Shown one piece after another: positions 2,099-20,184 of a DNA stretch of 50,910 nucleotides. The notes below the pieces were generated by a model. It saw only the letters and a list, made by a program, of their open reading frames with translations, was not told where the DNA came from and made no database searches. The DNA is from Candidatus Methanoperedens sp. Its GTDB lineage: Archaea > Halobacteriota > Methanosarcinia > Methanosarcinales > Methanoperedenaceae. The position numbers and the translations under genes are program-made. The number at the start of each line of letters is the position of its first letter. Position 1 is the first letter of the stretch. The DNA is taken from the NCBI GenBank assembly GCA_027460465.1, contig JAPZAV010000019.1:1-50910 (forward strand), read 5' to 3'.

Positions 2099-2150
2099 AA
2101 TCGAAGCTATGCCGGAGGGCTGGGAGATTGTGAGGCTGGGGGCACAAAGC
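2067..2150 (+). pseudogene. hsdS 5'-end remnant (MSREGEKMTEIEAMPEGWEIVRLG)
   Basis: Matches the start of the intact HsdS at 6261 (MSMEGGGILEIGEMPEGWKALKL), then runs into the composite repeat. Confidence 0.7.
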
Positions 2151-2192
2151 GTAGCAATCCAGACTGAAAAAATACTGGCGCATATTTATCAA

Positions 2193-2640
2193 ACACGGAT
2201 GACATGGATCGGACGGATCTTCACGGATATTTTTAATCCGTGGGTATCCGCGTCATCCGCGCAATCCGTGTTCTATCGTATTCCACCAATAATTGATGAA
2301 GGTAAAAAACCGCAGATGAACGCGGATGAACGCAGATTAATTTCATCGGTTCACAGCAAAGGACGCAAAGAGCGTAAAGCAATGCAGCAGGAAACACTGC
2401 GCTCTGGAGTGATAAAAATCAGATACGGTATAAACAACGAACTCGAACGAACTGATACGAACTCAGATCATTCAGAGTTCGTACGAGTTCGCATCAGTTC
2501 TCTGCTAATGTCTATTTTGCTGTTCTCTTTGCGTCCTTGGAGCTCTTTGCGGTTGAATGCCTTTTCCACCCCGGCGCATGAGCGCGCGCCGCCTGCGCCT
2601 GCCGTTCGCCCGTGGACAAACCGCGCGGAGGGATGAATTT
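2193..2640. repeat. Composite hairpin-chain repeat, copy R1
   Basis: acacggat...atttttaatccgtg...atccgtgt hairpin (2193-2271); cgcagatgaacgcggatgaacgcag; gcaaaggacgcaaagagcg; gaactcgaacgaact...agttcgtacgagttcg hairpin; GC-rich tail ccccggcgcatgagcgcgcgccgcctgcgcctgccg...ccgcgcggaggg. Confidence 0.85.
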
Positions 2641-3734: not shown

Positions 3735-3761
3735 TGATTGAGATTGGGTTTAGATGGAAAG

Positions 3762-4079
3762 AACCGCAGATAAACGCGGATGAACGCAGATACATTCCTA
3801 TAACAGGATTTGACGAAATAATCCACCACAAAGGACGCAAAGAGCGCAAAGGAGTGCAGCATGAACCTTTGCTCTCTTGTGTAACAAAAATCAGAAACGT
3901 TATAAACAACGAACTCGAACGAACTGAAAAGAACTCAGGTCATTCAGAGTTCGTGCGAGTTCGTATTAGTTCGCTGTTAATTTCCGTTTTAAGGCTTTTA
4001 TTCACCCCGGCGCATGAGCGTGCGCAGCCTGCGCCTTCCGTTCATCTGCGGACAAGCCGCGCGGGGGGATGAGCATGGA
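3762..4079. repeat. Composite hairpin-chain repeat, copy R2
   Basis: Shares ccgcagataaacgcggatgaacgcag, acaaaggacgcaaagagcgcaaag, gaactcgaacgaactg...agttcgtgcgagttcg and the GC-rich tail ccccggcgcatgagcgtgcgcagcctgcgcc...ccgcgcggggggatgagcatggagggcgg. Confidence 0.85.
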
Positions 4080-4141
4080 GGGCGGGAGGATGACGGACAT
4101 TTTTAGATTATCGGAGAAATTAAAGGTGGTGAGTTTTAAGA

Positions 4142-5188
4142 ATGTATAGACCAAAATTCATAATCACTAATAAAATCAACAATGAGCTTCTTGAAATAGA
4201 AAGAACAAGGGGTTTCCTTGACGCTGCGCAATTGAAGGGCGACTGGATAAAAGAAATGCAAAGCGCGGCGCTCATTCTTGAGGCGCATCATTCCACCCAT
4301 ATTGAGGGAACACAGCTTACACTTTCCGAAGCGCAGAAGATACTTGCGGGTAAACCTGTGAAAGGAGTAAGACCTGATGATCGGCAGGAGCTGTTGAATT
4401 ATAAAGACGCCATGAATTTTGTTTCTGAATACCTGGACAGAAAATCTGAAATCACCGAGGAGATGATCAGGGACATTCACAGGATACTTGTTAAAGATGT
4501 CAGGGGCGGGTCTCTTGAACCTGGACGCTACAGGAGGATTCAGAATTATGTGGTGAATTCCCTGACAGGGGAGATAATCTACACACCGCCTCCCTCAGAG
4601 GATGTCCCGGCGCTGATGAACGAATTCGTGGATTGGCTAAATGAGGAAAAAGATATTTCACCCATCCTGATGGCAGGAGTGGCTCAACACAGGTTCGTTG
4701 ATATCCATCCCTTTCTGGATGGTAACGGCAGGACAGCACGGGTTCTCTGCACTCTTATTCTTTATCAGAACGGCTACGACTTCAAGAGACTCTTTTCCCT
4801 GTCGGAATTCTATGATAAGAATAGACGACAGTATTACGATTCAATACAGTCGGTGAGGGAGATGGGTATGGATACGACTGTTTGGCTTGAATATTTCGTC
4901 AGGGGATTGAAGAACCAGATGCTTGAAGTCAAGAATAAAGGAGAGGTAGCAATCAGAAAGGAGGTTGTTATAGAGAGGGCTGAAATGCTTAACCTGAATG
5001 ACAGGCAGCGGAAGATTCTGATGTATTTGCTTGAGGAAAAAAGGGCATCTGTTGATGAAATCGGAAGGATGTTCGATTTCGTCAGAAGAACTATCCAGCG
5101 CGACCTCGCAAAAATGGTTGAGCTGGGTTTGATTAAGGAGGTAGCAAAAAGCAAGACTGACCCGACCAAGTACTATGAATTACTGTGA
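4142..5188 (+). CDS. Fic family protein with C-terminal winged helix
   Basis: Fic motif HRFVDIHPFLDGNGRTARVL (HxFxxxxxxxDGNGRxxR-like), N-terminal inhibitory-helix-like STHIEGTQLTL, C-terminal HTH. Confidence 0.95.
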   Translation: MYRPKFIITNKINNELLEIERTRGFLDAAQLKGDWIKEMQSAALILEAHHSTHIEGTQLTLSEAQKILAGKPVKGVRPDDRQELLNYKDAMNFVSEYLDRKSEITEEMIRDIHRILVKDVRGGSLEPGRYRRIQNYVVNSLTGEIIYTPPPSEDVPALMNEFVDWLNEEKDISPILMAGVAQHRFVDIHPFLDGNGRTARVLCTLILYQNGYDFKRLFSLSEFYDKNRRQYYDSIQSVREMGMDTTVWLEYFVRGLKNQMLEVKNKGEVAIRKEVVIERAEMLNLNDRQRKILMYLLEEKRASVDEIGRMFDFVRRTIQRDLAKMVELGLIKEVAKSKTDPTKYYELL

Positions 5189-5225
5189 CATCTACTGTGA
5201 CAATGCTGTGACATCTACTATGACA
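5184..5225. repeat. Four spaced TGTGACA-type direct repeats, about 11-12 bp period
   Basis: TGTGACA at 5184, 5196 and 5207, and TATGACA at 5219, separated by tctac/atgc/tctac. Confidence 0.8.
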
Positions 5226-5392
5226 TTGAGGATCGCATGAAAACCGAGGAGATAATGAAAGATAGCGCATATAACTACAAACTCACCAAGAGCGGCGCCC
5301 TGTCTGAGGGGTGGAAGGCGGTGAGGCTGAGGATGCAAAGAACGCAAGGCGCAGCAATCCTGCACGAAGAAGTGCTGCTACTACGACTTCGA

Positions 5393-5723
5393 ACACAGAT
5401 GACACGGATTGGATGGATTTTCACGGATATTTTTAATCCGTGGGCATCCGCGCAATCCGTGTTCCATCGTAATCCAGAAACAATTGACGACGATAAAAAA
5501 CCGCAGATAAACGCAGATGAACGCAGATACGTTTCTGTAACGTATTTCATCAAAACAACTCACCGCAAAGGACGCAAAGAGCGCAAAGCAATGCAGCAGG
5601 AATCTTTGCGTCCTTTGCGCTCTTTGCGGTTGAACGTCTTTTCTGCCCCGGCGCATGAGCGCGCGCCGCCGCAGCCAGCGCCTGCCGTTCATCTGCGATC
5701 GAGCCGCGCGGGGGGATGAGTAT
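5393..5723. repeat. Composite hairpin-chain repeat, copy R3
   Basis: Hairpin 5393-5462 (acacagatgacacggat...atttttaatccgtg...aatccgtgt), hairpin 5562-5631 (accgcaaaggacgcaaagagcgcaaag...ctttgcgtcctttgcgctctttgcggt), GC-rich tail to 5716. Confidence 0.85.
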
Positions 5724-5765
5724 GGAGGGCGGGAGGATGAGGGAAATCGGGGAGATGCTACAGCA
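5717..5765 (+). pseudogene. hsdS 5'-end remnant (MSMEGGRMREIGEM)
   Basis: Near-identical to the start of intact hsdS (MSMEGGGILEIGEM); interrupted by copy R4. Confidence 0.65.
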
Positions 5766-5785
5766 GCGACATGGCACACTGGTGC

Positions 5786-6264
5786 CACGGATCGGATGGA
5801 TTTTCACGGATATAATCAATCCGTGCGTATCCGCGTCATCCGCGCAATCCGCGTTCTATCCCATGGATAATAAACCACAGAGAGCACAGAGGACACAGAG
5901 ACAAGAATCAATTCTCTGTTCTCTCTGTGTGCTCTGTGGTGGATTGATTTTATCCATTGCAAAGGATTTTGATAAAACAACTCACCGCAAAGGACGCAAA
6001 GAGCGCGAAGCGGCGCAGCATGAACCTTTGCTCTCTTGTGTATCAAAAACCAGATACGGTATAAACAGCGAACTCCGACGAACTGAAACGAACTCCGGCT
6101 ATTCAGAGTTCGTGCGAGTTCGTATTAGCTCGCTGTTAACGTCTATTCTGTTACCTTTGCGTCCTTTGCGCTCTTTGCGGTTAAACGTCTTTTCCGCCCC
6201 GGCGCATGGGCGCGCGCTGCTTGCGCCTGCCGTTCATCCGCGATCGAGCCGCGCGGGGGGATGA
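5786..6264. repeat. Composite hairpin-chain repeat, copy R4
   Basis: Hairpins 5786-5854, 5875-5940 (ccacagagagcacagaggacacagag...ctctgttctctctgtgtgctctgtgg), 6062-6130, and the GC-rich tail immediately before the hsdS start. Confidence 0.85.
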
Positions 6265-7532
6265 GCATGGAGGGCGGAGGAATTCTGGAAATTGGAGAGA
6301 TGCCGGAGGGGTGGAAAGCCCTGAAGCTGGAGGATGTTGGAGTTTTGCAATATGGTTTTACAGCTTCTGCCAAGAACGATAATACAGGAATAAAGTTATT
6401 GAGAATAACAGACATTACTGATATTGGAATTGATTGGCCAAATGTCCCTTATTGTGATTTAAAAGATTCTGAATTTAAAAAATATGAGTTAAGCAAAGGC
6501 GATGTCTTATTTGCACGAATAGGTTCAACGACTGGTAAAACTTGTTATATTGACAGACATGTGAAAGGAGTCTTTGCATCTTATCTCATAAGATTCCGAC
6601 CTTTAGCGGATGACATAGAAACAAATTTCCTGTATTTTTATACCCAATCACGATTATATTGGTCACAAATTAATAAAAATAAGGAAGCCCATTTGAAGAA
6701 AGGAATAAATGCAAAAGTTTTGGGAAATCTCTTAATGCCTCTCCCCCCTCTCCCCGAACAGCGCCGCATCGCCGAAGTCCTGGGTACGGTGGACAGCGCC
6801 ATCCAGAAGGTGGGCGGCGCCATCGAGAGCACGGAGCGCCTGAAGAAGGGGCTGATGCAGAGGCTGCTGATGAGGGGGATAGGGCATGAGAGGTTCAAGG
6901 AGAGCGAGGTGGGGAGGGTGCCGGAGGAGTGGGAGGTGGTGAGGCTGGGGGATGTTGCAGATGATTTTGTTGGTGGAGGAACTCCTTCAACGACTAATCC
7001 AGATTATTGGAATGGAAAAATTGCTTGGATGACAAGCTCGCACATTAACGGAAGGATAGTGAATTCAGGGCAACGTCTCATCACAGAAAAAGGCTTGAAA
7101 GAAAGCTCAACTCATTTAATACCAAAGGACAATTTATTAGTTGCCACCCGTGTCGGAATAGGAAAGGCAGCAATTAATTCAATTGATGTCGCCATAAGTC
7201 AGGATTTGACAGGTGTTATAATCAAAAAAGATAAAGTAAATGCGGATTATATTTATTGGGTTTTGCTTGCCAATCTCAATAAACTAAAATCTCTGGCGCA
7301 AGGTAGCACAATAAAAGGGATATTAAAAGACGATTTAGCAAACTTGAAAATCCCCCTCCCTCCTCTCCCCGAACAGCGCCGCATCGCCGAAATCCTGAGC
7401 GCCGTTGACAGGAAGCTGGAGCTTGAGCGCAGGAGGAAGGAGAAGCTTTCGAGGGTAAAGAAGGGGCTGATGAACGAGCTGCTGACGGGGAGGAAGAGGT
7501 TAAAGGTGGAAAATGACGGAAACATTTATTAG
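6261..7532 (+). CDS. hsdS: Type I restriction enzyme specificity subunit HsdS (two target recognition domains)
   Basis: Two TRDs, each followed by PLPPLPEQRRIAE(V/I)L conserved regions; EIGEMPEGWKALKL and VGRVPEEWEVVRLGDV TRD starts. Confidence 0.96.
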   Translation: MSMEGGGILEIGEMPEGWKALKLEDVGVLQYGFTASAKNDNTGIKLLRITDITDIGIDWPNVPYCDLKDSEFKKYELSKGDVLFARIGSTTGKTCYIDRHVKGVFASYLIRFRPLADDIETNFLYFYTQSRLYWSQINKNKEAHLKKGINAKVLGNLLMPLPPLPEQRRIAEVLGTVDSAIQKVGGAIESTERLKKGLMQRLLMRGIGHERFKESEVGRVPEEWEVVRLGDVADDFVGGGTPSTTNPDYWNGKIAWMTSSHINGRIVNSGQRLITEKGLKESSTHLIPKDNLLVATRVGIGKAAINSIDVAISQDLTGVIIKKDKVNADYIYWVLLANLNKLKSLAQGSTIKGILKDDLANLKIPLPPLPEQRRIAEILSAVDRKLELERRRKEKLSRVKKGLMNELLTGRKRLKVENDGNIY

Positions 7533-7535
7533 TAA

Positions 7536-7561
7536 TGGAACAAATTTGTTACATATGGAAC
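7536..7561. promoter_or_regulatory. Operator-like palindromic element at the MNT gene start, copy 1
   Basis: tggaacaaatttgttacatatggaac; contains aacaaatttgtt and gttacatatggaac near-palindromes; repeated at 10201-10226. Confidence 0.5.
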
Positions 7562-8100
7562 TAAATATAACCAGTGAGATTCTAAATGTACTTTTTGGCG
7601 AGGAGATACATGCAAGAGCACTGGCTAAAAGGCTTGACATTAACCACATGACTGTGATGAGGAACCTTAAAGAACTCGTCCGTGAAAATGTCCTGGAATT
7701 CAGGAAGGAGGGAAGGAACAAGGTATATTTTCTGAAAAAGAACATGGAAGCAAGAAACTATGAGCTCATATCAGAATTGTATAAATTAAACAAAACATTA
7801 GAAAAATACCCTGAACTTAGAAAAACAATAAAAAATATCCAGCAAAACAAGGAAATCGGGCTTGCAATACTCTTCGGAAGCTATGCAAAAGGCACAGCGA
7901 ACAAAAATAGCGACATTGATGTATTTATTGAAACAAAAGACAGGAACCTCAAAAAGGAACTTGAGCTTCTTAATTCAAGATTGAGCGTGAAAATCGGGGA
8001 GTACGACAGGTCAAGCCCGCTTATAAAAGAGATCGAAAAAAATCATATAATAATCAAAGGAGCCGAGATATTTTATGAAAAAATCGGATTTCTTCAGTAG
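7555..8100 (+). CDS. wHTH plus MNT-type nucleotidyltransferase antitoxin
   Basis: N-terminal HTH (EEIHARALAKRLDINHMTVMRNLKELV); GLAILFGSYAKGTANKNSDIDVFIET nucleotidyltransferase motif. The track start 7513 is possible; MELNITSEIL at 7555 seems likelier. Confidence 0.9.
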   Translation: MELNITSEILNVLFGEEIHARALAKRLDINHMTVMRNLKELVRENVLEFRKEGRNKVYFLKKNMEARNYELISELYKLNKTLEKYPELRKTIKNIQQNKEIGLAILFGSYAKGTANKNSDIDVFIETKDRNLKKELELLNSRLSVKIGEYDRSSPLIKEIEKNHIIIKGAEIFYEKIGFLQ

Positions 8101-8554
8101 ATTGCAGGAAGAAGGAAAGCTCCAACTGGTCCCGCCCAGTGAAGAGATTATGACTTCCTACCTGAAAAAATCAGACAGCCACCACATATCTGCAAAACTT
8201 CTTCTAGAAAATGACCGATTGGAAGAATCGGTTTCCCTGGCTTATTACAGCATGTATTACATGCTTCTTTCTCTATTCTTCAGGGTTGGTATAAAATGCG
8301 AGAACCACTCTGCTGGAATAATTCTTCTCAAAGAATTGTTCAGCATTGATAACTCACTTATATCCTATGCCAAAAAAGAAAGAATCGATAAGCAGTACTA
8401 TGTTGATTTTAAGATAATGAAAGAAGAAGTTGAAGAATTAATCGAAGCAGCAGAGATATTCAACTCGAAAATCCTTGATTTCATTGAGAAATTGAACAGT
8501 GAAAAAATAGCAGATTTCAGAATGAAAATGGATGTTCTGCTAAAACCGGTGTAA
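8075..8554 (+). CDS. HEPN domain toxin paired with MNT
   Basis: SDSHHISAKLLLENDRLEESVSLAYYSMYYMLLSLFFRVG; overlaps the MNT gene. Confidence 0.88.
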   Translation: MKKSDFFSRLQEEGKLQLVPPSEEIMTSYLKKSDSHHISAKLLLENDRLEESVSLAYYSMYYMLLSLFFRVGIKCENHSAGIILLKELFSIDNSLISYAKKERIDKQYYVDFKIMKEEVEELIEAAEIFNSKILDFIEKLNSEKIADFRMKMDVLLKPV

Positions 8555-8557
8555 ATA

Positions 8558-8890
8558 ATGCCTCAGTTCACAGAAAAATCCTTTGTTAATATCATGTCTG
8601 GTAGAAGAGAATTGCAGCACCTAAAAGCACTGGAACGTGAACCTCAAGGTACACTGGCTTTTAGGTCTTACCTGCTAAAAAGATGTAGGGTTATACCTCA
8701 CAATAAAGCTTTTGGCGCTCTTAAGCTTAATATCCCCCTCCCCCCTCTCCCAGAACAGCGCCACATCGCCGAGATACTGAGCGCCGTTGATAGGAAGCTG
8801 GAACTTGAGCGCAGGAGGAAGGAGAAGCTTGAGAGGGTGAAGAAGGGGCTGATGAATGAACTGCTGACGGGGAGGAAGAGGGTGAATTAA
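8558..8890 (+). pseudogene. Chimeric fragment: hsdR start (MPQFTEKSFV) plus hairpin element plus hsdS 3' end
   Basis: MPQFTEKSFV matches HsdR start MPKFTEKSLV (14003); NIPLPPLPEQRHIAEILSAVDRKLELERRRKEKLERVKKGLMNELLTGRKRVN matches the HsdS C-terminus. Confidence 0.85.
8614..8677. repeat. 64-bp structured hairpin element H, copy 1
   Basis: gcagcACCTAAAAGcactggaacGTGaACCTcaAGGTaCACtggCTTTTAGGTcttacctgcta; near-identical copy at 10086-10149. Confidence 0.75.
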
Positions 8891-8892
8891 AA

Positions 8893-9852
8893 ATGGAAAA
8901 GAAATTAACCTTCAATGACATCGCACGCCATATATTTTCTGACGAAAAGGAATTCATAAAATTCACCAAAGCAGTTTCAGAGATAACAAAATTTTATGAG
9001 ATACCCGAAGAAGAGGAAAAGGGAAGACTATTAGATGCCAAAAGTTTCATCGAAGCTGCTGAAGGTGATTTAAAATCCGCTAAAATCTTATACGAATCTG
9101 GGATTTACCCAACTGCAATATATCATCTACAGCAAGCTGTTGAGAAATTCGTTAAGGCGTATATGATTCAGTATTTTGTGATGAATAAGAAAGACATAGA
9201 GCATTACGTCAAACATGATTCACCGAAAGCATTTTTTAGGCTTATTGAGCGATTTAAAAATATTTTGAGTATAAATTTTTCAATTCTTGAAAAAGCTGAC
9301 ATATTTGATTCCCAAATACCAAAAATCTCAATTCAGGAGGCTCATCATCTTGAAAATGCATTAAAAGTAAGCAAACAACAGATAGCTAAAATGAATTCTA
9401 AAGACATTGATAACAAAATAAATTTAGCATATAAATCACTTGATATTTATGAAAATCAGGGAAATCAAGAAATAATAAAAGCTAAAGTAGCAGATTTTCT
9501 TGCAACCTTTAGACAAGAATTGACTGAAATTGAAGTTTCAAACAGGGATCAGAGACGTATCAGTGAAGCTATAGCGATTATTGATAAAGTTAGAGAAAAG
9601 TTGGATGGCACTTTTTTCATAACTTTAAGACATCATTCAAACATTTCTGCATTGTATATACTTTCCCTAATAACGTATCCCCATGTAACATTTGCAAGGT
9701 ATCCAAATAGTTTTCTACCTCCTGATAAGTATGATATGAACCTTGGAATAGTCCAGTGTTTTGGTAAAATTACTGATTTATTGGATAAAATAGTTATTTC
9801 TTGGAAAATCGATTTGTCGCAAGATAAGACTCTAAATCAAGGAGAGGAGTGA
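8893..9852 (+). CDS. HEPN domain-containing protein with uncharacterised C-terminal domain
   Basis: LLDAKSFIEAAEGDLKSAKILYESGIYPTAIYHLQQAVEKFVKAYMIQ is a HEPN signature. Confidence 0.8.
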   Translation: MEKKLTFNDIARHIFSDEKEFIKFTKAVSEITKFYEIPEEEEKGRLLDAKSFIEAAEGDLKSAKILYESGIYPTAIYHLQQAVEKFVKAYMIQYFVMNKKDIEHYVKHDSPKAFFRLIERFKNILSINFSILEKADIFDSQIPKISIQEAHHLENALKVSKQQIAKMNSKDIDNKINLAYKSLDIYENQGNQEIIKAKVADFLATFRQELTEIEVSNRDQRRISEAIAIIDKVREKLDGTFFITLRHHSNISALYILSLITYPHVTFARYPNSFLPPDKYDMNLGIVQCFGKITDLLDKIVISWKIDLSQDKTLNQGEE

Positions 9853-9856
9853 AAAT

Positions 9857-10036
9857 ATGGGTTCAGGCTGGCACTTCATGCCTGCTGACGAGCATGAGAT
9901 AAAAATCCCCCTCCCCCCTCTCCCCGAACAGCGCCGCATCGCCGAGATACTGAGCGCCGCTGACAGGAAGCTGGAGATAGTGAAGAAGGGGCTTATGAAC
10001 GAGCTGCTGACGGGAGGGAAGAGAGTGAGGGTATGA
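9857..10036 (+). pseudogene. Second hsdR-like / hsdS 3'-end chimeric fragment
   Basis: MGSGWHFMPADEHE resembles HsdR KGWRFVPANELE; then IKIPLPPLPEQRRIAEILSAADRKLE-IVKKGLMNELLTGGKRVRV with an internal deletion of about 33 bp relative to the other copies. Confidence 0.75.
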
Positions 10037-10085
10037 TACGATTTATGAACCATGGAATACAAAAAATATATCAAAGAAAAAATTT

Positions 10086-10149
10086 GCAGCACCTAAAAGC
10101 ACTGGAACGTGCACCTCATGGTACACTGGCTTTTAGGTCTTACCTGCTA
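10086..10149. repeat. 64-bp structured hairpin element H, copy 2
   Basis: gcagcacctaaaagcactggaacgtgcacctcatggtacactggcttttaggtcttacctgcta; two substitutions versus copy 1. Confidence 0.75.
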
Positions 10150-10200
10150 ATGATAGACTTTAAAGTGCAATAAAGCTTTGGCAGTCTTAAAGCACTATGA

Positions 10201-10226
10201 TGGAACAAATATGTTACATATGGAAC
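10201..10226. promoter_or_regulatory. Orphan copy of the MNT-start operator-like element
   Basis: tggaacaaatatgttacatatggaac, 1 mismatch to 7536-7561, but no MNT ORF follows. Confidence 0.5.
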
Positions 10227-10324
10227 AATGTTGATACTTCGGGACTTTATGGGATTGAAATGTATGCTGGAAAAATAAAACAAAATAGAAATGATTATCA
10301 ATAAACCGGTTTAGAAATAAAATC

Positions 10325-10813
10325 ATGAATCCATATTTAAGAAATGAAAGTGAAGCAGAAGAGTTTGACAATACTGTCGATGTTGCCTTGAAGTTATTTG
10401 CAAGAAGTAAAAAAAGACGCCAGATGGCTGAAAATTATCTCCTGACATTAGGAATAAAATCAGTCAGACCCATTGCATACACAATTGAACTTGCACTCTG
10501 GGATAAAAGCATGTCAGACGATGATATAAATGAACGCGCCGAAGATGTTTCTGACATAATTCTTCAAATAGGAACTGATGCGCTCCCCGATCTTAATTAT
10601 CTTGCAATAAATGGAAGCTGCAACATGTATGTGAACGATTGGGCGCAGGAGTTGATATTCAAGGTCATGGGTTTAGATGGTGATGAGAAGCAAAAGATTT
10701 GTCATCATTTCGGATGGTTATTAATTCCAGAAGAAGATAGCAATTTAAGGATTTGTCCTCTATGCCATTCCAGGTTTACAGCAGGTCAAGAACCTGAACA
10801 CGGTGATGAATAA
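10325..10813 (+). CDS. Hypothetical protein (helical, C-terminal CPLC zinc-binding-like motif)
   Basis: Stop overlaps the next ATG; RICPLCHSRF near C-terminus. Confidence 0.75.
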   Translation: MNPYLRNESEAEEFDNTVDVALKLFARSKKRRQMAENYLLTLGIKSVRPIAYTIELALWDKSMSDDDINERAEDVSDIILQIGTDALPDLNYLAINGSCNMYVNDWAQELIFKVMGLDGDEKQKICHHFGWLLIPEEDSNLRICPLCHSRFTAGQEPEHGDE

Positions 10814-11571
10814 TGTCAGGAAAAATCCTGGTGCCTGCTGACTTGCAGGAAATATGCATCCTTTTTGAAGACTCTTCATGCGAACACAGAGGTTACCTTG
10901 ATCTAAAAACTGGTGAGATCATCCAGATTTTTGATGATATCATGGACACTGAGGAGAAGCAAGAACTTGATGACAAAGTGGATGAAGGATCAGGAGAGCG
11001 TTATATTGCCATCCCGAATGCTGAATCATATGAGGGCTACCAGGATATGGAGGATTTTATTGAGACAGTAAAGGATGTAAAACATAAAGAAAAACTTTAT
11101 AATTCAATATCCAGGAAAGGCGCTTTCAGGCGGTTTAAAGATGTGCTGAACTCTTATCCGAAAGAGAGAGAAAGATGGTTCAAGTTCAAGGATGAGAAGG
11201 TTATGGAGCGTGTAAATGAATGGCTTGAGGAGGAAGGGATCGAGATAATACCTCAAAAATTTATTGAGATCAGGGAAGTATCATTCCGCGAGATCAGTGA
11301 GTCAACTGAAATAGAAGAATCATGGAAAGGTTTTGGCGCAAGAGGATGCCTGAAATGTGATAGCGAAGATGGATTCAAAGAGAGATATTTTGTCATATCA
11401 AGATGTCCCGATGGTGAAGAAGAAGAGCATTGGCTTGACGAGACAATGAAAAAGAGATATGGTGTTAAGCATTATGGGATCATAGCGGGAATTTTTAATG
11501 ATAGCAGGGGACCTATCAACTCGGCAGTATGCGGGAAATGTGGCTCTCATGATATTTTCTTTGATTTATAA
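10813..11571 (+). CDS. UPF0158-like protein with additional C-terminal Zn-ribbon-like region
   Basis: DLQEICILFEDSSCEHRGYLDLKTGEII...RYIAIPNAESYEGYQDMEDFIETV...FRRFKDVLNSYPKERERWFKFKDEKVMERVNEWLEEEGIEII is UPF0158-like; C-terminal CGKCGSHDI. Confidence 0.8.
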   Translation: MSGKILVPADLQEICILFEDSSCEHRGYLDLKTGEIIQIFDDIMDTEEKQELDDKVDEGSGERYIAIPNAESYEGYQDMEDFIETVKDVKHKEKLYNSISRKGAFRRFKDVLNSYPKERERWFKFKDEKVMERVNEWLEEEGIEIIPQKFIEIREVSFREISESTEIEESWKGFGARGCLKCDSEDGFKERYFVISRCPDGEEEEHWLDETMKKRYGVKHYGIIAGIFNDSRGPINSAVCGKCGSHDIFFDL

Positions 11572-11583
11572 TCAGGTGACAAA

Positions 11584-12465
11584 ATGAGATTATCAAAAGA
11601 TGATACCGATCTTTTTTACAAACTGAACTGGTCGCTTCTATTCTATGTAAATAAGAAACATCCTGTTATTCAGGGAATAAATACACCCGACTTTAAAAAC
11701 CAGGATATCGGTAAAATTGCAGAAATTCATGAAATAATTCATTCTAATCCAGGATTGATTGATGCATTTTGTGCCGAGAATCCGTTTAATTTCAATCAAG
11801 AAGAGCTTGACATAATTCAAAGCTGGAAAAATTTTGTAAAGGGCAGGTTTTTCATAGTTACGCATTTAAAAAACTATACCGTCTTTTTAAAAGAAGATGA
11901 GCTGAGAGCTTATGGAGTCCTCGGATTGATCGATGAAATTGAAGATATTACACCCTCTTATTTGCCTTCGCTTGTTGGTACTGTTCTTCTGCCTTTCAAA
12001 GGTAAGATAATTCATTTCGGGCTTTTCCAGTTTTGTAATATTCACTTCGGAAGAGGTATTAAGAGGGATATTCAGGCAGAATACCAGAAAGCAAAAAGCA
12101 AGTTCGGAATCATGCTCTCCCTGGATACTCCGATTAGCGAGAAGAAAGAATCTGACGAAGAATTGCTCAGGTTTTATGTCAAGAACGAAGATAACAGGGC
12201 AGAATATTGGGATGAAATCAAACAACTCCTTGGAAAAAATCCTTTACTTTTTAAAATTTATTATCAGGAGATCGGCAAGTCAAACTCCAGAAAAGTGAAA
12301 AAGAGATTATCAAAGATAGGGATTACATCAAGGTGGTTTGCAATTTTTGAAGATATTATTATTGCGTCAGGAAATACTGAGCAAGAAGTGAGAGCGCAGG
12401 TAGAGAGTATTTTTCAAGAAAATGAAAGAAATTATGTCTATATATTCAGGTATGTCAATAAATGA
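11584..12465 (+). CDS. Hypothetical protein
   Basis: Intact 293-aa ORF in operon context (MRLSKDDTDLFYKLNWSLLFYVNKK...). Confidence 0.75.
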   Translation: MRLSKDDTDLFYKLNWSLLFYVNKKHPVIQGINTPDFKNQDIGKIAEIHEIIHSNPGLIDAFCAENPFNFNQEELDIIQSWKNFVKGRFFIVTHLKNYTVFLKEDELRAYGVLGLIDEIEDITPSYLPSLVGTVLLPFKGKIIHFGLFQFCNIHFGRGIKRDIQAEYQKAKSKFGIMLSLDTPISEKKESDEELLRFYVKNEDNRAEYWDEIKQLLGKNPLLFKIYYQEIGKSNSRKVKKRLSKIGITSRWFAIFEDIIIASGNTEQEVRAQVESIFQENERNYVYIFRYVNK

Positions 12466-12986
12466 AATCTGCTGAACTGAAAAAGACCCTTGAACGGTTT
12501 GATAAGAAAGAGCTTATCCAACTAATCACTGAGCTTGCCAAGCTAAAAAAATACAACATGGAATGGCTTGAAATAGAATTCCAGAGACCTGATGAGCTTC
12601 CGGAGTTACTTGAATATTATAAGAAGAAGATTTCAAGAGCTCTGGATTCAAATGATTTTACGGCAGCCAATAAAGCCATCAGCGATTTTAAAAAAGCCTC
12701 GCCTGACAGGGAAAAACTGATCGACCTCATGATATATTATGTGGAACAGGGGACAGAAATCACTCTTGACTGCGGAGATATGTATGAGGACTTTTATACA
12801 AAGCTGGAAAATGTTTACATAGATGCAATAAAACTGCTGAATGAATGGGGTGATACAAAACTTATTGAAAAATTCAGACCGAGGATGGAGACACTTATTA
12901 ATAAAACGGAGGATGTTGGATGGGGATATCATGACGTTCTTTGGGATTGGTATGATGAACTGGGAATATCAGAAAAAGAGGAATAA
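12462..12986 (+). CDS. Hypothetical protein, DUF6155-like
   Basis: Pattern KKELIQLITELAKLKKYNMEWLE...YYKKKISRAL...DVGWGYHDVLWDWYDELG; ATGA overlap with upstream stop. Confidence 0.7.
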   Translation: MKSAELKKTLERFDKKELIQLITELAKLKKYNMEWLEIEFQRPDELPELLEYYKKKISRALDSNDFTAANKAISDFKKASPDREKLIDLMIYYVEQGTEITLDCGDMYEDFYTKLENVYIDAIKLLNEWGDTKLIEKFRPRMETLINKTEDVGWGYHDVLWDWYDELGISEKEE

Positions 12987-12989
12987 AAT

Positions 12990-13997
12990 ATGAACACCCA
13001 TAAATACGACGACTTAGCAGATTTTATAAATGAAGAAACTGATTTTTTTTGGGATTATATAAAAGATGATCTCCCCGAATATCCAACAGAAGCGCTGATA
13101 GATATAATGGTCGGACTTGGGCTTTATGTAAATAAAAAGCTTGCATGCGAGATAGCAAAAAGGGATGATGCTGTTTTCTATCTCAGGAAATTGTTACAAT
13201 ACGGCAAACACTGGCGCGATAATGGCCCCGGAAGCGGTTGGTCTCCATTACATGCCATACATATACTTGCGCTCATAAAGAGCACAGAAGCATTTGAGCT
13301 TTTGCTGGATATTATTCGATATCATGAAGATGATTTGAGTGACTGGGTGACAGAAGATGCAGCAAGCCTGCTGGTGGCGTTCGGGGAAGATTTCATAGAA
13401 CCTATAAAGGATTTTACAAATGATGAAACCCTTGAAACTTTTGCAAGATCAGCAGCAACTTCTGCTCTTGCAGCATTGGGGAAAAAATTTCCACATCATC
13501 AAAATGACATCAAGAAGCATTTGACAGAGCTGTTAAAAACCACTCATGATGGCACCTTTGCAGGTCTTGTTGCACATGATCTTGCCTCATTCCATGATCC
13601 TTCTGTAATTCCTGATATCCGCAGGGCATTTGAGGATGGAATAATTGATGATCCTTATATTCCGGAGGATGAAGTTGTAGCTGCTATAAATGGCGTTTTC
13701 TCTGATATGGATGCAAGAGATTTCAAGAGAAATACCGCAGATCCGCTTAACCATTTCTCACGGGAGAATATTGAACACCTGCATATGATAAACTATGAAG
13801 AAGATGATGGAGACGAGGAAGATGAAGATGATGGTGAATTTGAAGACGAAATTGACTCTGTACTAAAAGATGATTATTCTGAACCTGCGATGGAGGAAAT
13901 CAAACCTAAAGAAAAAAAGATCGGAAGAAACGAACTATGCCCCTGCGGTTCAGGAAAAAAATACAAGAAATGCTGCATGGGCAAGGAGAAATCATAA
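12990..13997 (+). CDS. HEAT-like repeat / DUF1186-like protein with C-terminal SEC-C motif
   Basis: Helical repeats, acidic linker [17 protein letters not shown]-terminal [21 protein letters not shown]. Confidence 0.85.
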
Positions 13998-14002
13998 GAC
14001 CC

Positions 14003-17000
14003 ATGCCAAAGTTCACTGAAAAATCCCTTGTCGAAGATTACATCCTTGAAAAACTCATGGAAAAAGGCTGGCGTTTCGTGCCCGCTAACGAGCTTGAGAG
14101 GGAGAGCTTCAGCGAACCCCTGCTGCTCAATAATCTTGTAAGGGCGATAAAGAGGTTGAATGCAGACAAAGGGATCGGGGACGAGGAATTAAAACATGTC
14201 CTGAATGAACTGAAGCTTAAAGGCTCCGGGAATGAGGGGCTTAAGCAAATCCTCGATTATCTCAAGTTCGGCGTGCCCATAAAGTTTGAAAAGGAGCGAG
14301 TGGTGAAATATGTCAGGCTTTTTGATTTTGAAGAAGTGGATAATAACGAATTCATCGTGAGCAGGCAGGTGGTCTATCACGGAAGGGATGATATCCGAAC
14401 CGACATAATGCTCCATATAAATGGCATTCCTCTTGTGGAAATCGAATGCAAGAACCCCGCAAGCTTCTCTGAAAACTGGTTTGATGCATACAAACAGATA
14501 AAAGACTATGAAAAAACGGTTCCGGAACTTTACAAATATGTCCAGATAGGCATAGCAGCAGAGCAGACCGCCATGTACTTCCCTATTGTCCCATGGCAGG
14601 AAGAGATCAAAGTCAATCAGTGGAAGGAAGAAGAAAAAGACCCCATCGATTCTGCTATTGAAATGCTATCAAAGGACACATTACTTGATATCATCCGCAA
14701 TTTCATGTTCTTCAGGGTGGAGATGGGAAATGCCACGAAAGTTATCGCCAGATACATGCAGTACAGGGCAGCCAGAAAAATCGTGAACAGGGTATCGGCA
14801 AACCTGAAAGGAGAGGACGAAAAGAATAAAGGGTTGATCTGGCACTGGCAGGGGTCGGGCAAGACGCTCACCATGATATTTGCAGCCCACAAACTGTATC
14901 ACTTAAAGAGCCTTGAAAACCCTTCTATCTTTTTCATTGTGGACAGGATTGAACTTGAAGAGCAACTCTATACTGAATTTAACTCGCTTGATATAGTGAA
15001 ACCTGAGATAATAGGTTCCATCCACGAATTGAGAAAGGTTCTGAAACACGATGAAGGAAAAGGCAAGCGGGGCATAATGATAACCCTGATACACAAGTTC
15101 AGGGTTGAAGAACTGAGCGAATTACAGAAAGAACTGGAAGAACTTTCAATTCAAAAAGAAACAATTCTGACCAGAAAGAACGTCGTAGCATTCATCGATG
15201 AAGGGCACAGGAGCCAGTATGGAACCATGGCCGGACAGATGAAAAAAATCCTGAAAGTAGCCTTCTTCTTTTCACTGACAGGAACCCCAATCTCTAAAAG
15301 AGGAAAGGACACCTATCTGGAATTCAGCTATCCGCCAGAAGAAAAATATCTTGATAGGTACTTCATTACGGACTCTATTCATGATGGATTCACAGTAAAA
15401 CTTGTTTATCAGCCAAGACTGGAAAAGGAAGTTCACCTGAAAAAAGATATGCTTGAGACATTCCTTGAAGTGGAATTTGAAGAACTTTCTGATGATATAA
15501 GGGACAGGGTCGAAGAGGGAGTCAAGAAGCGGCTCAATGCCATTAACATGTTCCTTGAAAATCCTAAAAGGATCGAGTTGATTGCCAAGGATATAGCAGA
15601 GCACTTCAAAGAAAATGTTGATGGAACGTTCAAGGCTATAGTGGTTGCAGCCAGCCGGAAATCTTGCGCCTATTACAAAGAAGCACTGGATAAGTGGCTG
15701 CCGAAAGAATACTCCGAAGTCGTCATGACCTATAATGAAAGGAGTGATACTCAGGTCATACAGCACAGGATCACCGAAGCAAAGGCTCGATACGGCGAGA
15801 AGGATATGGATGAGATTCGGAAGGAAGTTGTTGAGAAATTCAAAGAAGAAGAGTATCCAAAGATTCTGATTGTCACTGACATGTTATTGACTGGCTTTGA
15901 TGCGCCAATTCTCCAGACCATGTACCTTGATAAGCCATTAAAAGAACACCGTCTTCTCCAGGCGATAGCAAGGACAAACAGACCCTATAAAGGAATAAAA
16001 GAAGCTGGAGTAATATTAGACTATATAGGTATATTAAAAGAATTTAAGCGAGCTTTTGAATTATACAGCGAAGAAGAAATTAAAGGTGCGCTCTCAGGGA
16101 TGAATAGTCTGAGAGAAGACTTTAATATTCTCCTTGATGGTTTACTTGCGCTATTTTCCGATATTCCAAAAGATAACTATGACAGGCAGACAATGCTTAG
16201 AGCCATTGAAGTTCTCACAACAGATGAAGAGAATAGCAAAAGATTCCTGGAAGATTACGGGGAACTCAGGAAAATCTTTGAGCTTTTAGGACCTGCTGAA
16301 ATCAAAGTTGAACGATTCTCTGACTTTAAATGGATCTCTGGCATCTTTACATTTTATATGAATACTGTTTTGCAGAGCCAGCTTGGACATGAGATGTATG
16401 TCCAGAAATATTTCGAAAAGACTTTAAAATATGTTCACAGGACAACTGAACTTGAAAATCTGCGAAAGGATCTGCCTGTGATCAGTTTTGACGAGAATTA
16501 TCTCATGGAGCTGGAAGAAAAGAGCAAGAGCAAAGAAGAAAAAGCTGCAAGCATTGTATTTACATTGAACAGGCTGGTTTTGGTAGAAAAGCACAAAAAT
16601 CCAGTTTATGAATCCCTGACAGATAAAGTGGAGAGGATTTTAAAACTCTGGAAAGATAAAACCAGGGATTTTGAAAGAATTTACGCCGAAGGGATAGAAG
16701 TATTTAAGAAAATTGAGAAACTCTCTCAAAGGCAAAAGGAATTAGGTTTTTCTGACATGGAATATTCCTTGCTTCTGAATTTAGAAAAGAACTTCGGAGA
16801 AGATAGCGAATTTATACAAGATGTCAGAGAACTATCTGATGGATTACGAGATCATATTTTTAACAATTGGGCGGTACAGCAAACAGCAAGAAAAAATGTT
16901 GAAAGGGGAGTCCGCCGCTTTGTACGCAGGTATGTTAAAAGACATGGGCTGAAGCTTAACGAGCTTGATAGTCTTTATCAGAATTTAATGGAAAATGTGG

Positions 17001-17023
17001 AAAACTATGGGAAAGCTAGTTAG
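14003..17023 (+). CDS. hsdR: Type I restriction endonuclease subunit HsdR
   Basis: MPKFTEKSLVEDYILEKLMEKGWRF; ECKNP; WHWQGSGKTLTMIFAAHKL; DEGHRSQYG; SLTGTPI. Track start 13937 lies inside the preceding gene; MPKFTEK at 14003 is likelier. Confidence 0.96.
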   Translation: MPKFTEKSLVEDYILEKLMEKGWRFVPANELERESFSEPLLLNNLVRAIKRLNADKGIGDEELKHVLNELKLKGSGNEGLKQILDYLKFGVPIKFEKERVVKYVRLFDFEEVDNNEFIVSRQVVYHGRDDIRTDIMLHINGIPLVEIECKNPASFSENWFDAYKQIKDYEKTVPELYKYVQIGIAAEQTAMYFPIVPWQEEIKVNQWKEEEKDPIDSAIEMLSKDTLLDIIRNFMFFRVEMGNATKVIARYMQYRAARKIVNRVSANLKGEDEKNKGLIWHWQGSGKTLTMIFAAHKLYHLKSLENPSIFFIVDRIELEEQLYTEFNSLDIVKPEIIGSIHELRKVLKHDEGKGKRGIMITLIHKFRVEELSELQKELEELSIQKETILTRKNVVAFIDEGHRSQYGTMAGQMKKILKVAFFFSLTGTPISKRGKDTYLEFSYPPEEKYLDRYFITDSIHDGFTVKLVYQPRLEKEVHLKKDMLETFLEVEFEELSDDIRDRVEEGVKKRLNAINMFLENPKRIELIAKDIAEHFKENVDGTFKAIVVAASRKSCAYYKEALDKWLPKEYSEVVMTYNERSDTQVIQHRITEAKARYGEKDMDEIRKEVVEKFKEEEYPKILIVTDMLLTGFDAPILQTMYLDKPLKEHRLLQAIARTNRPYKGIKEAGVILDYIGILKEFKRAFELYSEEEIKGALSGMNSLREDFNILLDGLLALFSDIPKDNYDRQTMLRAIEVLTTDEENSKRFLEDYGELRKIFELLGPAEIKVERFSDFKWISGIFTFYMNTVLQSQLGHEMYVQKYFEKTLKYVHRTTELENLRKDLPVISFDENYLMELEEKSKSKEEKAASIVFTLNRLVLVEKHKNPVYESLTDKVERILKLWKDKTRDFERIYAEGIEVFKKIEKLSQRQKELGFSDMEYSLLLNLEKNFGEDSEFIQDVRELSDGLRDHIFNNWAVQQTARKNVERGVRRFVRRYVKRHGLKLNELDSLYQNLMENVENYGKAS

Positions 17024-17567
17024 AATCAGTGATTCAACCATAAACTGCGAAATAGTTCATCGAAACATAAAATATCCAAGGCTAGAATTCAAAACTGGTA
17101 AACTGTTACTCGTTCTGCCAATAGATCATAGAGATTATAATAACCTTATAGAGAAACATCAAGATTGGATATTCAAGCGAAGTTCTGAGATTGTCGCAGC
17201 ATTAGAGAAGGCGCAAAAGAAAGAACTTAATTTGAAAAGAACAGATGAAGAGCTCAAGAAGTCAATATACTCTATTGTTGATGAAGTCTCTTCTGATTTA
17301 AAAATTAATATAAACAACATATATTTTAGGAAAATGAAATCAAAATGGGGGAGCTGCAGTCCTAATAAGAATCTTACAATTAATACCCTTTTGAAATACT
17401 TACCTGAGAATTTAATTGAATATGTGATTTTTCATGAAATGGTTCATTTGATTGAAAGGAAACACAATAAGCTTTTCTGGAAGTTTATAGCTACTAAATT
17501 CGATAATTATGAAGAAAAAGAAAAAGAACTCTTCGAATATTGGTTTTTGATACAGAAAAAAATATAA
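17007..17567 (+). CDS. YgjP-like/DUF45 M48-type metallopeptidase
   Basis: KMKSKWGSCSPNKNLTINTLLKYLPENLIEYVIFHEMVHLIERKHNKLFW (HExxH). Confidence 0.9.
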   Translation: MGKLVRISDSTINCEIVHRNIKYPRLEFKTGKLLLVLPIDHRDYNNLIEKHQDWIFKRSSEIVAALEKAQKKELNLKRTDEELKKSIYSIVDEVSSDLKININNIYFRKMKSKWGSCSPNKNLTINTLLKYLPENLIEYVIFHEMVHLIERKHNKLFWKFIATKFDNYEEKEKELFEYWFLIQKKI

Positions 17568-17819
17568 ATAAAAAATCAGAAACATCCAGATCAAGAACAT
17601 TTCTCAACTTAATTCTTATCCATTGTGAGTATTAATCTGCAATCAGCAATCAGTGATGTTAAGTTTGTGCGTGTGGAAGCATCCTTGGTGATGCATAAGA
17701 ATTCATACTATGTATATGTGACATGAGCATCCTCATCTATCCTGAGAGACTCATTTAAATTTAATCCATTGATCTGACTTCGATTTCTTTCACTTTTTTG
17801 AAGTGCCCAGTTCTTCTCC

Positions 17820-17963
17820 TCATTTTTCTTCCCATTCACTTCGCATTTTACGCTGGTGCTCCAGACCCTCACCAAAAATCCCTTTTCCAAGACCCATCAG
17901 ATTGGCCACAGGGTTCCTGGGAGCTTTTCTGAGCACTACTTTCTCATCTTCACATATATCCAT
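17820..17963 (-). CDS. Small ORF, possible AbrB/VapB-type antitoxin C-terminal remnant
   Basis: MDICEDEKVVLRKAPRNPVANLMGLGKGIFGEGLEHQRKMRSEWEEK; below the track length cutoff; 18 nt downstream of the ACAD stop on the same strand. Confidence 0.4.
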   Translation of the reverse strand: MDICEDEKVVLRKAPRNPVANLMGLGKGIFGEGLEHQRKMRSEWEEK

Positions 17964-17980
17964 TCATTCTCTGCATCTTC

Positions 17981-19204
17981 TTATTCCACATACTCCTTAC
18001 CTATGACATCCCTTGCTATTATGTAGCGCATGATGTTCTGCGCTCCCTCAGCGCCTATGACGTATGAGAAGCATCCAAGCCATGCCCTGTACAGCGGGCA
18101 TTCCTTGCTGTACCCGTACGCTCCATACCATTTCATAGTCTCTTCCAGTGCTCTCACGCAGGTTTCAGGCGCTGTGAGCTTTGCCATTGCCACAGGAACA
18201 TTCAGATCAGAAGGCTTGAATGAAGTGTCCTTTTCAAGATAGATCTTATCTGCCATCCATGCTGCTTTGTAAACAAAGTATTTTGCGGCCTCAAGCTGCG
18301 CATAGAGCTCTGCGAACCTGAAGCTCACACCCTGGAATGAAGAAATGTGCTTTCCAAAGAGCTTTCTCTGTTTGAACCACTCCACAGCCTGATCCAGCGC
18401 CCACCTTCCTGCTCCGATGCAGGCGGCAGCAACAAGTATGCGCGCGATGTTGAAACCTTCCATGCTGAGATAGAAGCCTCTGTCAACATCACCTATCCTG
18501 TACCTGTCCTCTATTTCAACATCAGTCAATTTGAAGCCGCCTGTGGTAAGACCTCTTCTTCCGATCTCGTCCATCACGGTGGGCTCAAATCCTCCAACAT
18601 TCTTCCCCTCTTTTTTGGCGAGAAATGCGTAGGCTGTCAAAGCCCTGTGGCCTCTATCCATCCCGCCTGTCCTTGTCAGAATCCAGAATCCTCCTCCCCA
18701 TGGAAGCTCCCTGAGCTCTCCCACACCGCTGATATACATCTTCTCCCCGTTGAGAAACCATGTGCTGCCTTTCTTTTCAGCAGTCACCCTTGTTCCAGCA
18801 AGATCAGAGCCTCCCTGGTTCTCTGTGGTTGCAATCCCGAAGAACGCTTCATTCTTCACGACCCTGGGCAGAATCTCGTTTTTTGCTTCTTCTGATCCAA
18901 AGATCTGAAGTGCAAGAGGCCAGCCGTTCTGGAGCAGTGTGTACACAGGTATTGCGACCTGGGGATCTGCATAGGCTATCTCTTCCACAGCTATCGCTGA
19001 CATGACCATGGTTCCGCCTGCGCCTCCGTACTCAGGCTTTATTGCTATCCCAAAAAAGCCCTGATCAGCCATCTTCCTGTACAGCTCGGCAGGAAAGTAG
19101 CCTTTCTCATCAAGATCAACCCATACTGGTGCGATATGCTTCTCACAGAATTCTTTGACGACACGTTTAAATACTTCCTCTTCCTCGGTAAATTTGAAAT
19201 CCAT
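17981..19204 (-). CDS. Acyl-CoA dehydrogenase
   Basis: MDFKFTEEEEVFKRVVKEFCEKHIAP...FFGIATTENQGGSDLAGTRVTAEKKGSTWFLNGEKMYISG...IARILVAAACIGAGRWALDQAVEWFKQRKLFGKHISSFQGVSFRFAE...AYGYSKECPLYR, full-length ACAD. Confidence 0.95.
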   Translation of the reverse strand: MDFKFTEEEEVFKRVVKEFCEKHIAPVWVDLDEKGYFPAELYRKMADQGFFGIAIKPEYGGAGGTMVMSAIAVEEIAYADPQVAIPVYTLLQNGWPLALQIFGSEEAKNEILPRVVKNEAFFGIATTENQGGSDLAGTRVTAEKKGSTWFLNGEKMYISGVGELRELPWGGGFWILTRTGGMDRGHRALTAYAFLAKKEGKNVGGFEPTVMDEIGRRGLTTGGFKLTDVEIEDRYRIGDVDRGFYLSMEGFNIARILVAAACIGAGRWALDQAVEWFKQRKLFGKHISSFQGVSFRFAELYAQLEAAKYFVYKAAWMADKIYLEKDTSFKPSDLNVPVAMAKLTAPETCVRALEETMKWYGAYGYSKECPLYRAWLGCFSYVIGAEGAQNIMRYIIARDVIGKEYVE

Positions 19205-19347
19205 GCTATCCTACCCCTGGTTTAATTTACGTGCTCTGCTGTTATATATCTTTGCCGCTGCCTGAAATATTTCAAAAGGAAAAAAGGAAAAATATAATAA
19301 TACTGGACGATCAACATTATATATTCTTAAAGAAGGGAGGAGTTTAA

Positions 19348-20184
19348 ATGACAGAACAGGAAGAACTCGTGGAAGAACTCAGCGGGCTGCTCGAGGACAA
19401 TGCTGGCGACCTGAAGATGCAGTGGGTAAAGGAGATGACAGAGATGGGTCTGCTTGAGAAGCTGACTCCTATAGAGATAGAGCAGCAATCCTCGACCATC
19501 TATGATACCTGCGTTTTGACCCTGAAGACAGGGATGTACGAGGCAGCGAAAAAATATGCACGCGAGATGGCGAAAAAAGGTGTGCTTGAAGCCATGACCG
19601 TGGACCAGATAATAATGGGCATGCTGAAGCTTCGTGATGTTTACGGCAGGTTTGTTTTCTCCAAGTACCAGAGCGATGCTGAAAAACTGTACGAAGTGCT
19701 CGGGGTATATGAGCCGGTCGCGAACAGGATATTGAGCATCGTTGCCCTTGCTTTCGTGGAAGAGAGGGAAAGGGTGATCAAGGAGCAGCAGCAGGCCATG
19801 CTCGCCCTCTCCACGCCTGTACTGCAGATCAGGGACCTGATACTTGTTCTTCCCCTGATAGGCACCATAGATTCGGCGCGAGCAGCACAGATCGTTGAGC
19901 AGCTGTTGAACAGCATCGTGGATACGCAGGCATCTGTGGTCATAATAGACATCACAGGGGTACCTGTTATCGATACTGCGGTTGCCAACCACCTGATCAA
20001 GACGATACAGGCTGCAAAGATGCTTGGAGCAAACACCATCATAACCGGGATCAGTCCTGCAAATGCTCAGACCCTTGTCACACTTGGGGTCGATCTCTCA
20101 ATGCTGACCACCAGAGGTACGCTGCGTTCGGGTGTAAAGCTGGCAGATGAGATGCTCAAGATCGAGGTAGTGGAAAAGAGGTAA
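19348..20184 (+). CDS. rsbR: RsbR-like stressosome scaffold (RsbRD-type N-terminus plus STAS domain)
   Basis: C-terminal VVIIDITGVPVIDTAVANHLIKTIQAAKMLGANTIITGISPANAQTLVTLGVDLS; both Thr positions typical of RsbR STAS (DTAVANH, AQTLVTLG) retained. Confidence 0.92.
   Translation: MTEQEELVEELSGLLEDNAGDLKMQWVKEMTEMGLLEKLTPIEIEQQSSTIYDTCVLTLKTGMYEAAKKYAREMAKKGVLEAMTVDQIIMGMLKLRDVYGRFVFSKYQSDAEKLYEVLGVYEPVANRILSIVALAFVEERERVIKEQQQAMLALSTPVLQIRDLILVLPLIGTIDSARAAQIVEQLLNSIVDTQASVVIIDITGVPVIDTAVANHLIKTIQAAKMLGANTIITGISPANAQTLVTLGVDLSMLTTRGTLRSGVKLADEMLKIEVVEKR

Follow-up and report, generated by a model that had tools for sequence, protein, structure and literature searches.

How do toxin-antitoxin (TA) and other putative defence genes enter a type I restriction-modification operon, and by what process do they come to lie beside repeated ends of its specificity gene? 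The question is raised by a 50,910-nt stretch of DNA (the window) on contig C19 of a draft genome (2.87 Mb) of Candidatus Methanoperedens sp., a methane-oxidising archaeon. From the contig start, the window carries the end of hsdM, three cargo genes, an hsdS with two target-recognition domains (TRDs), three cargo units, hsdR and a gene for a YgjP-like metallopeptidase, the hsd genes forming one operon-like cluster (Table 1). Domain assignments (Pfam, with PADLOC for defence systems) place known or candidate defence and TA genes between the hsd genes, namely MNT, HEPN, DUF1016 (PDC-S02), AlbA and Fic, and any defence function of this cargo is putative. We propose that the arrangement probably arose by recurrent recombination between related hsd loci, anchored in the conserved ends of hsdS and joined illegitimately at the far side, followed by erosion of the hsd sequences and retention of the cargo. 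The assemblies compared here (loci are given L numbers) are mostly drafts.

The three copies of the hsdS terminus recognised in a previous sequence-only reading are borne out. The end of the intact hsdS (T1) and two orphan tails (T2 and T3) form one repeat family, with codon-aligned identities of 90.8% (T1-T2), 89.4% (T1-T3) and 89.4% (T2-T3), and a whole-genome search with the tail retrieved copy 2 at E = 1.5e-58 and copy 3 at E = 1.6e-27 and 1.4e-10, together with the central conserved region of hsdS itself (6734-6796, 86%). Judged by these alignments, the similarity is far beyond chance; it extends to the nucleotide level, with mostly silent differences, and is not a matter of protein conservation alone. 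Each tail is followed by different cargo, as had been read from the sequence and as the domain search confirms: an MNT/HEPN pair after T1, a second HEPN protein after T2 (HEPN319, 25% identical to HEPN294 of L019) and a five-gene cassette after T3, with hsdR last. The orphan copies hold the tail only and lack TRDs, which sets them apart from phase-variable hsdS of the tvr/cod type. Short reads that joined repeats in a draft metagenome assembly could create such junctions, the longest exact matches being 23-29 nt between tails and up to 35 nt with the central region. However, tail matches of merely 23-29 nt, and the presence of the same junctions in independently assembled genomes, argue against an artefact, which we regard as scarcely credible.

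The residues resembling the start of HsdR that had been noticed before two of the tails are also real, at 8558-8586 (29 nt, 86%) before T2 and at 9865-9899 (35 nt, 83%) before T3, both in the hsdR reading frame. The first scrap, R', though short, is found at the same junction in L018 and L083, and the corresponding place in L020 holds an hsdR-start scrap of 85 nt (86%). HEPN159 and HEPN319 are separated by an hsdR start, a 139-nt segment termed D6 (8590-8728) and T2, in that order, while the join between HEPN319 and the five-gene cassette consists of an internal hsdR-start scrap (GWHFMPADEHE) fused in frame to T3. Such chimeras form scar open reading frames (ORFs) of 110, 59, 101, 109 and 85 aa, open in the window (2), L019 (2), L082 and L083, and separated from neighbouring genes in the window by gaps of 2-4 nt. 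These joins had been interpreted as hsdR-start to hsdS-end junctions in the reverse of native order; the joins stand, but their order is that of one unit's hsdR followed by the next unit, with the end of a DUF3800 gene included at T2.

The D6 segment, which had escaped the first reading, identifies this additional cargo. Part of it (8603-8678) recurs after T3 at 10075-10150 (93%) and nowhere else in the genome, which has two copies, both at this locus. In relatives it lies at cargo boundaries: a complete DUF3800 gene in L082 (204 aa, ending in ...YHVW*; Pfam) runs into D6 and then a tail; in L104, which belongs to a different family of the order, DUF3800 is followed by D6 and then an hsdS start; and L022 carries the equivalent of the second copy, D6b, at the same position after hsdS. 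The L082 and L104 arrangements indicate that what remains in the window of a lost DUF3800 cargo gene is just its 3' flank and final codons. The two copies confined to this locus and the DUF3800 end and flank seen in L082 led us to reject a mobile miniature inverted-repeat transposable element as the main interpretation of D6. We likewise rejected a conserved RNA within Methanoperedens, as stem pairs are often broken, and a coding segment, as replacement divergence (dN) is about equal to or above silent divergence (dS) in most pairs. An integron-like cassette array is not indicated either: no integrase was seen among the main ORFs scanned, and the sole recurring hairpin is this degenerate DUF3800 3' flank. 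A separate observation concerns the hairpin itself (8603-8678, 10075-10150; L082 8972-9700; L100-L104), whose stem shows largely paired differences between clades, ACCTAAAAGC/GCTTTTAGGT versus ACCAATAAGG/CCTTATTGG; an RNA or DNA element linked to DUF3800 in Methanosarcinia is one possibility, and the hairpin degenerates in the Methanoperedens scars. No Rfam family matched positions 1-20000. A 27-nt near-palindromic repeat (ATGGAACAAATTTGTTACATATGGAAC; 7535-7561 and 10200-10226), also new to this analysis, is found where MNT-type genes begin in several relatives and is a possible operator or leader remnant.

Accretion had been placed at the 3' end of hsdS. It is seen there, but the one-sided picture is incomplete, since copies of the hsdS leader and start, not previously noticed, flank the cargo between hsdM and hsdS as well. 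Searched against the genome, a 111-nt leader/start query matched strongly at four places, none outside the hsdM-hsdS interval. One is the copy belonging to hsdS; the remaining three follow the AlbA/HATPase protein, the DUF1016/YhcG nuclease and the Fic protein respectively. One further match was weak (71%, E = 2.7e-4) and lies on contig C95 near another hsdS-tail scrap. The corresponding interval has one leader copy and one cargo gene in L018, and two in L019. Cargo is in this way joined to the adjacent hsdS end, tail then cargo on the 3' side and cargo then leader/start on the 5' side, a layout expected from crossovers in conserved hsdS ends with an illegitimate far join. An MNT gene lying 5' of hsdS in L104 carries, by visual judgement, what looks like a fused hsdS-start peptide (LEPLPKGWEVV). 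L104 is also a second cargo-rich hsd locus: HicB-like, MNT and DUF3800 genes occur in its hsdM-hsdS gap (831-5786) with a small ORF resembling ASCH and a gene for a 500-aa PIN-like protein (named by eye except MNT and DUF3800).

Whole hsd operons duplicated in tandem, or acquired next to one another, could have produced the same scars after internal deletion of hsdR, hsdM and most of hsdS, in which case one-sided insertion would be unneeded. The scraps do read from hsdR start to hsdS tail, as across the boundary of two operons; hsdM scraps lie directly 5' of tails in L082 and L086; and the R'-D6-T scar contains a 4-codon DUF3800 end, which amounts to several deletions at one boundary. Yet no intact tandem pair of hsd operons was present in the loci examined, hsdM sequence occurs in none of the window's scars, and the 5' array repeats the leader/start alone and not whole operons. 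Tandem operon duplication with deletion accounts for the 3' scars about as well as anchored recombination and for the 5' array less simply, and we consider it a possible though not a probable origin.

Comparison of the hsdS-hsdR interval across related Candidatus Methanoperedens loci demonstrates that cargo order is not fixed and that the same tails adjoin different cargo. HsdR is 92-94% identical in L018-L020, L022 and L023, and the cargo sets differ: hsdS, AbrB-VapC, MNT-HEPN, hsdR scrap-D6, orf174-SEC-C, hsdR in L018; hsdS, HEPN294, tail, 447-aa ORF, tail, AbrB-VapC, D6-tail, MNT, SEC-C, hsdR in L019; hsdS, MNT-HEPN (truncated), hsdR scrap, MNT-HepT, SEC-C, hsdR in L020; hsdS, D6, UPF0158-orf174-SEC-C, hsdR in L022; and hsdS, AbrB, orf174-SEC-C, hsdR in L023. 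All four tails of L019 are followed by different cargo (HEPN294, the 447-aa ORF, AbrB-VapC and MNT). A tail and MNT move as a block, being found as hsdS tail-MNT in the window and L020 and as D6-T4-MNT in L019. In L022 the hsdS end carries the window's second TRD (92.5% over 7227-7507) and is directly joined to the sequence that follows T3 in the window (86% over 9902-10352), so that the two alleles differ by a 2.5-kb insertion or deletion bounded by tails 1 and 3; the assemblies would fit a gain by insertion at T1/T3 or a loss by collapse to the L022 state alike.

It might be supposed that the tails are independent old pseudogenes, unrelated hsd remnants in a defence island that had no part in recombination. 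L083, L086 and L087 are plainly decayed. Cargo survives next to scraps in decayed loci, with an hsdM scrap and tail in L082 and L086; in L083 (7300-7640) hsdR is reduced to its first codons beside a broken YgjP-like gene while the upstream cargo array is kept, and the first tail is frameshifted. This supposition is nevertheless improbable, for the tails are mostly 82-95% identical, lie at cargo boundaries with a common orientation across many genomes, diverge with a silent bias, and bound the alternative allele of L022. Site-specific integration, in which an integrase-bearing element would target and regenerate the hsdS 3' end, finds a parallel in the gene-end duplication and serial accretion of tRNA-targeting islands. 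Against it, the tail matches begin at tail positions 1, 13, 15, 25, 30 and 53, breakpoints too variable for such an island, and a similar process operates at the hsdS 5' end with other sequence. The expectation that no integrase would be visible also held: the main ORFs scanned in the window included no integrase, transposase or recombinase, and the cargo of the relatives examined contained none that we could recognise. We judge this mechanism very improbable. A search of viral contigs with HsdR gave no match, which leaves a viral carrier without support.

The pattern of divergence further points to recombination among tails, as the orphan tails carry mostly silent differences and the adjacent scar does not. 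Between T2 and the fourth tail of L019 (T4), both with the D6-tail junction, the tail has dS 0.217 and dN 0.026 (7 silent and 3 replacement changes), versus dS 0.123 and dN 0.226 (4 silent and 20 replacement) in D6, which adjoins it in the scar ORF. The silent bias of tail relative to D6 has a Fisher p of 0.005 for this pair, and of 0.004 and 0.19 for the other two. The tail tree has weak support and was used solely for its lack of clustering by position, the T3 and L086 rows being set aside. The silent bias would come either from exchange with functional tails or from selection on the orphan tails themselves. Scar ORFs would be selected if the chimeras coupled translation of the polycistron or made HsdS-tail mini-proteins, in keeping with their open frames, their short gaps in the window and a dN/dS of about 0.12 in the tail part. 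However, in the D6 part dN roughly equals or exceeds dS in most pairs, D6 is broken in L087, and the frameshifted L083 tail favours exchange over selection; we consider selection on scar ORFs unlikely.

We propose that incoming or duplicated hsd-locus DNA would cross over with the resident locus at the conserved ends of hsdS, the tail on the 3' side and the leader/start on the 5' side, and that the far end would join illegitimately, either by homology-facilitated illegitimate recombination or by tandem duplication and later internal deletion. Every event would add cargo and leave a duplicated hsdS terminus, often with a scrap of the next hsd gene. The redundant hsd DNA would then erode and the cargo persist, possibly through addiction, as several TA pairs may be costly to lose, and later recombination among direct tail copies could delete, reorder and homogenise units. 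The type and direction of recombination are proposals. The layout, in which tails and leaders form conserved anchors beside heterogeneous cargo, with hsdR, hsdM and DUF3800 scraps opposite, matches that of a displacement array.

Several observations weigh against this proposal. A tail is missing at some cargo boundaries (VapC-MNT in L018; AbrB-orf174 in L023), and tail repeats are absent from other hsd loci of this genome. At one of these, L111, hsdS and hsdR are 3.7 kb apart with no direct repeats of at least 60 nt in the gap, which means that cargo can occupy this interval without the tail-scar process. The suggestion that the hsdS-hsdR junction is a modular integration site consequently holds insofar as the same tails bound different cargo, as a tendency of this locus family and not as a strict rule. 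A search of 238 genomes of the class, made with a query particular to this family of tails, found no tail arrays outside Methanoperedens; the candidates elsewhere in the class (L105-L110) were discarded as transposon-split hsdS, single tails or contig ends. Because several junctions (R'-D6 and D6-T) are common to genomes, the copies outnumber the independent events. Of the three pairs compared for silent bias, one is not significant, and the bias could reflect selection on scar ORFs.

Outside the cluster, an SMC-like gene (31289-34704) is present as two overlapping ORFs (an N-terminal part of 445 aa; hinge and C-terminal part of 693 aa), a split gene or a frameshift.

Table 1. Features of the hsd locus, with positions in the window and the basis of each assignment.
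Feature	Position	Strand	Basis
hsdM 3' end, cut by contig/window start	1-539	+	86% aa identity to L018 HsdM residues 416-590
Cargo 5'-1: SLFN_AlbA_2/HATPase_c_4/Fic-like_C protein, 520 aa	536-2098	+	Pfam
hsdS start scrap and leader copy A	2015-2640	+	Alignment; leader copy 2562-2636, 84%
Cargo 5'-2: DUF1016/YhcG PDDEXK protein (PADLOC PDC-S02)	2640-3734	+	Pfam, PADLOC
hsdS leader/start copy B	3731-4140	+	4005-4090, 88%
Cargo 5'-3: Fic protein with C-terminal helix-turn-helix (HTH)	4142-5188	+	Pfam
hsdS start scrap and leader/start copy C	5190-5760	+	5639-5755, 82%
Leader copy D, leading into intact hsdS	5756-6300	+	Alignment
Intact hsdS, 423 aa, two TRDs	6261-7532	+	PF01420, 2.7e-53, two stretches
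hsdS tail T1 (distal conserved region)	7347-7504	+	Repeat family D1
Cargo 1a: HTH-MNT nucleotidyltransferase (GSX10DXD), putative antitoxin	7513-8100	+	Polbeta/NTP_transf_2
Cargo 1b: HEPN protein (HEPN159), putative toxin	8075-8554	+	PF05168, 1.7e-8
hsdR-start scrap R', opens 110-aa chimeric scar ORF (8558-8890)	8558-8586	+	86% to hsdR start
D6a: last codons (YHVW*) and hairpin-forming 3' flank of deleted DUF3800 gene	8590-8728	+	90% to G003 (L082/L093) segment, DUF3800 intact there
Orphan hsdS tail T2	8729-8886	+	91% to T1
Cargo 2: HEPN protein (HEPN319), 319 aa	8893-9852	+	PF05168, 9.4e-12; AbiV-like 1.6e-4
hsdR-start scrap R'', in frame with T3 in 59-aa scar ORF (9857-10036)	9857-9901	+	35 nt at 83%
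Orphan hsdS tail T3, without 10 codons	9902-10028	+	75 nt at 95% and 41 nt at 93%
D6b: second copy of DUF3800 3' flank	10075-10180	+	93% to 8603-8678
D10: remnant/leader common to MNT genes, includes 27-nt repeat also at 7535	10195-10270	+	Repeat comparison
Cargo 3: orf162, UPF0158, orf293, orf174, DUF1186/SEC-C protein	10325-13997	+	ORF list, domain search
Intact hsdR, 1006 aa	14003-17023	+	HSDR_N, SWI2_SNF2 and others
YgjP-like metallopeptidase, conserved 3' of hsdR in relatives	16995-17567	+	PF01863, 1.7e-31

Embedded antiviral defences, that is, defence genes inside other immune operons, are reportedly the subject of a 2024 preprint by Payne et al. (cited in PMC12255303). In the literature examined, that preprint lying outside the comparison, no account was found of scars from hsdS ends dividing cargo units stacked to either side of the gene; the presence of cargo between hsdS and hsdR is already known, and it is the two-sided scar array that appears to be new. 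The scars offer a sequence-visible route by which defence genes would enter and leave type I restriction operons, each recording a past event, and the pattern suggests that ordinary recombination can stack and exchange such genes with no need of a dedicated integrase. Cargo is also seen to persist after its carrier restriction genes have decayed. With tail and leader scars, the mechanism of a hotspot could be tested by allele comparison, and the order of the array read as a history. It can be tentatively hypothesised that the hsdS ends constitute an integrase-free cassette platform, whose termini on both sides would be recurrent crossover points for stacking, swapping and dropping defence cassettes between species, the orphan tails being kept recombination-ready by exchange with the functional tail and the frames of the chimeric scar ORFs possibly being maintained for translational coupling.

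In bacteria, cargo in hsd operons is established (rlo/mlo genes and DarTG2), and the excerpted text of PMC12255303 calls the hsdS-hsdR site a potential recombination hotspot without giving a mechanism. Such bacterial loci resemble the present one in having cargo, TA systems included, between hsdS and hsdR and between hsdS and hsdM, and the RM-DarTG2 island of enteropathogenic Escherichia coli includes an M48-family metallopeptidase gene, comparable to the YgjP/M48-type gene 3' of hsdR here; repeated hsdS tails or leaders that separate several cargo units are not described in the excerpts. The pneumococcal tvr locus (PMC6265443) has direct repeats in an hsdS locus, TA-like genes, and excision and reintegration, but it shuffles TRDs through the tyrosine recombinase TvrR, whereas the tails here lack TRDs and no recombinase was found among the ORFs scanned. 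The closest published model is provided by the displacement arrays of Vibrio type VI secretion system effector-immunity genes and the orphan 3' regions of Rhs genes (PMC5361080), which share serial addition beside a conserved anchor and displaced gene-end remnants, and for which homology-facilitated illegitimate recombination with later exchange by homologous recombination was proposed, the same kind of process as we invoke. In those arrays the anchor is the constant upstream or 5' region and the remnants derive from variable effectors, whereas here the conserved hsdS ends anchor both sides, the cargo consists of TA, HEPN, AlbA and Fic genes, and the host is an archaeon.

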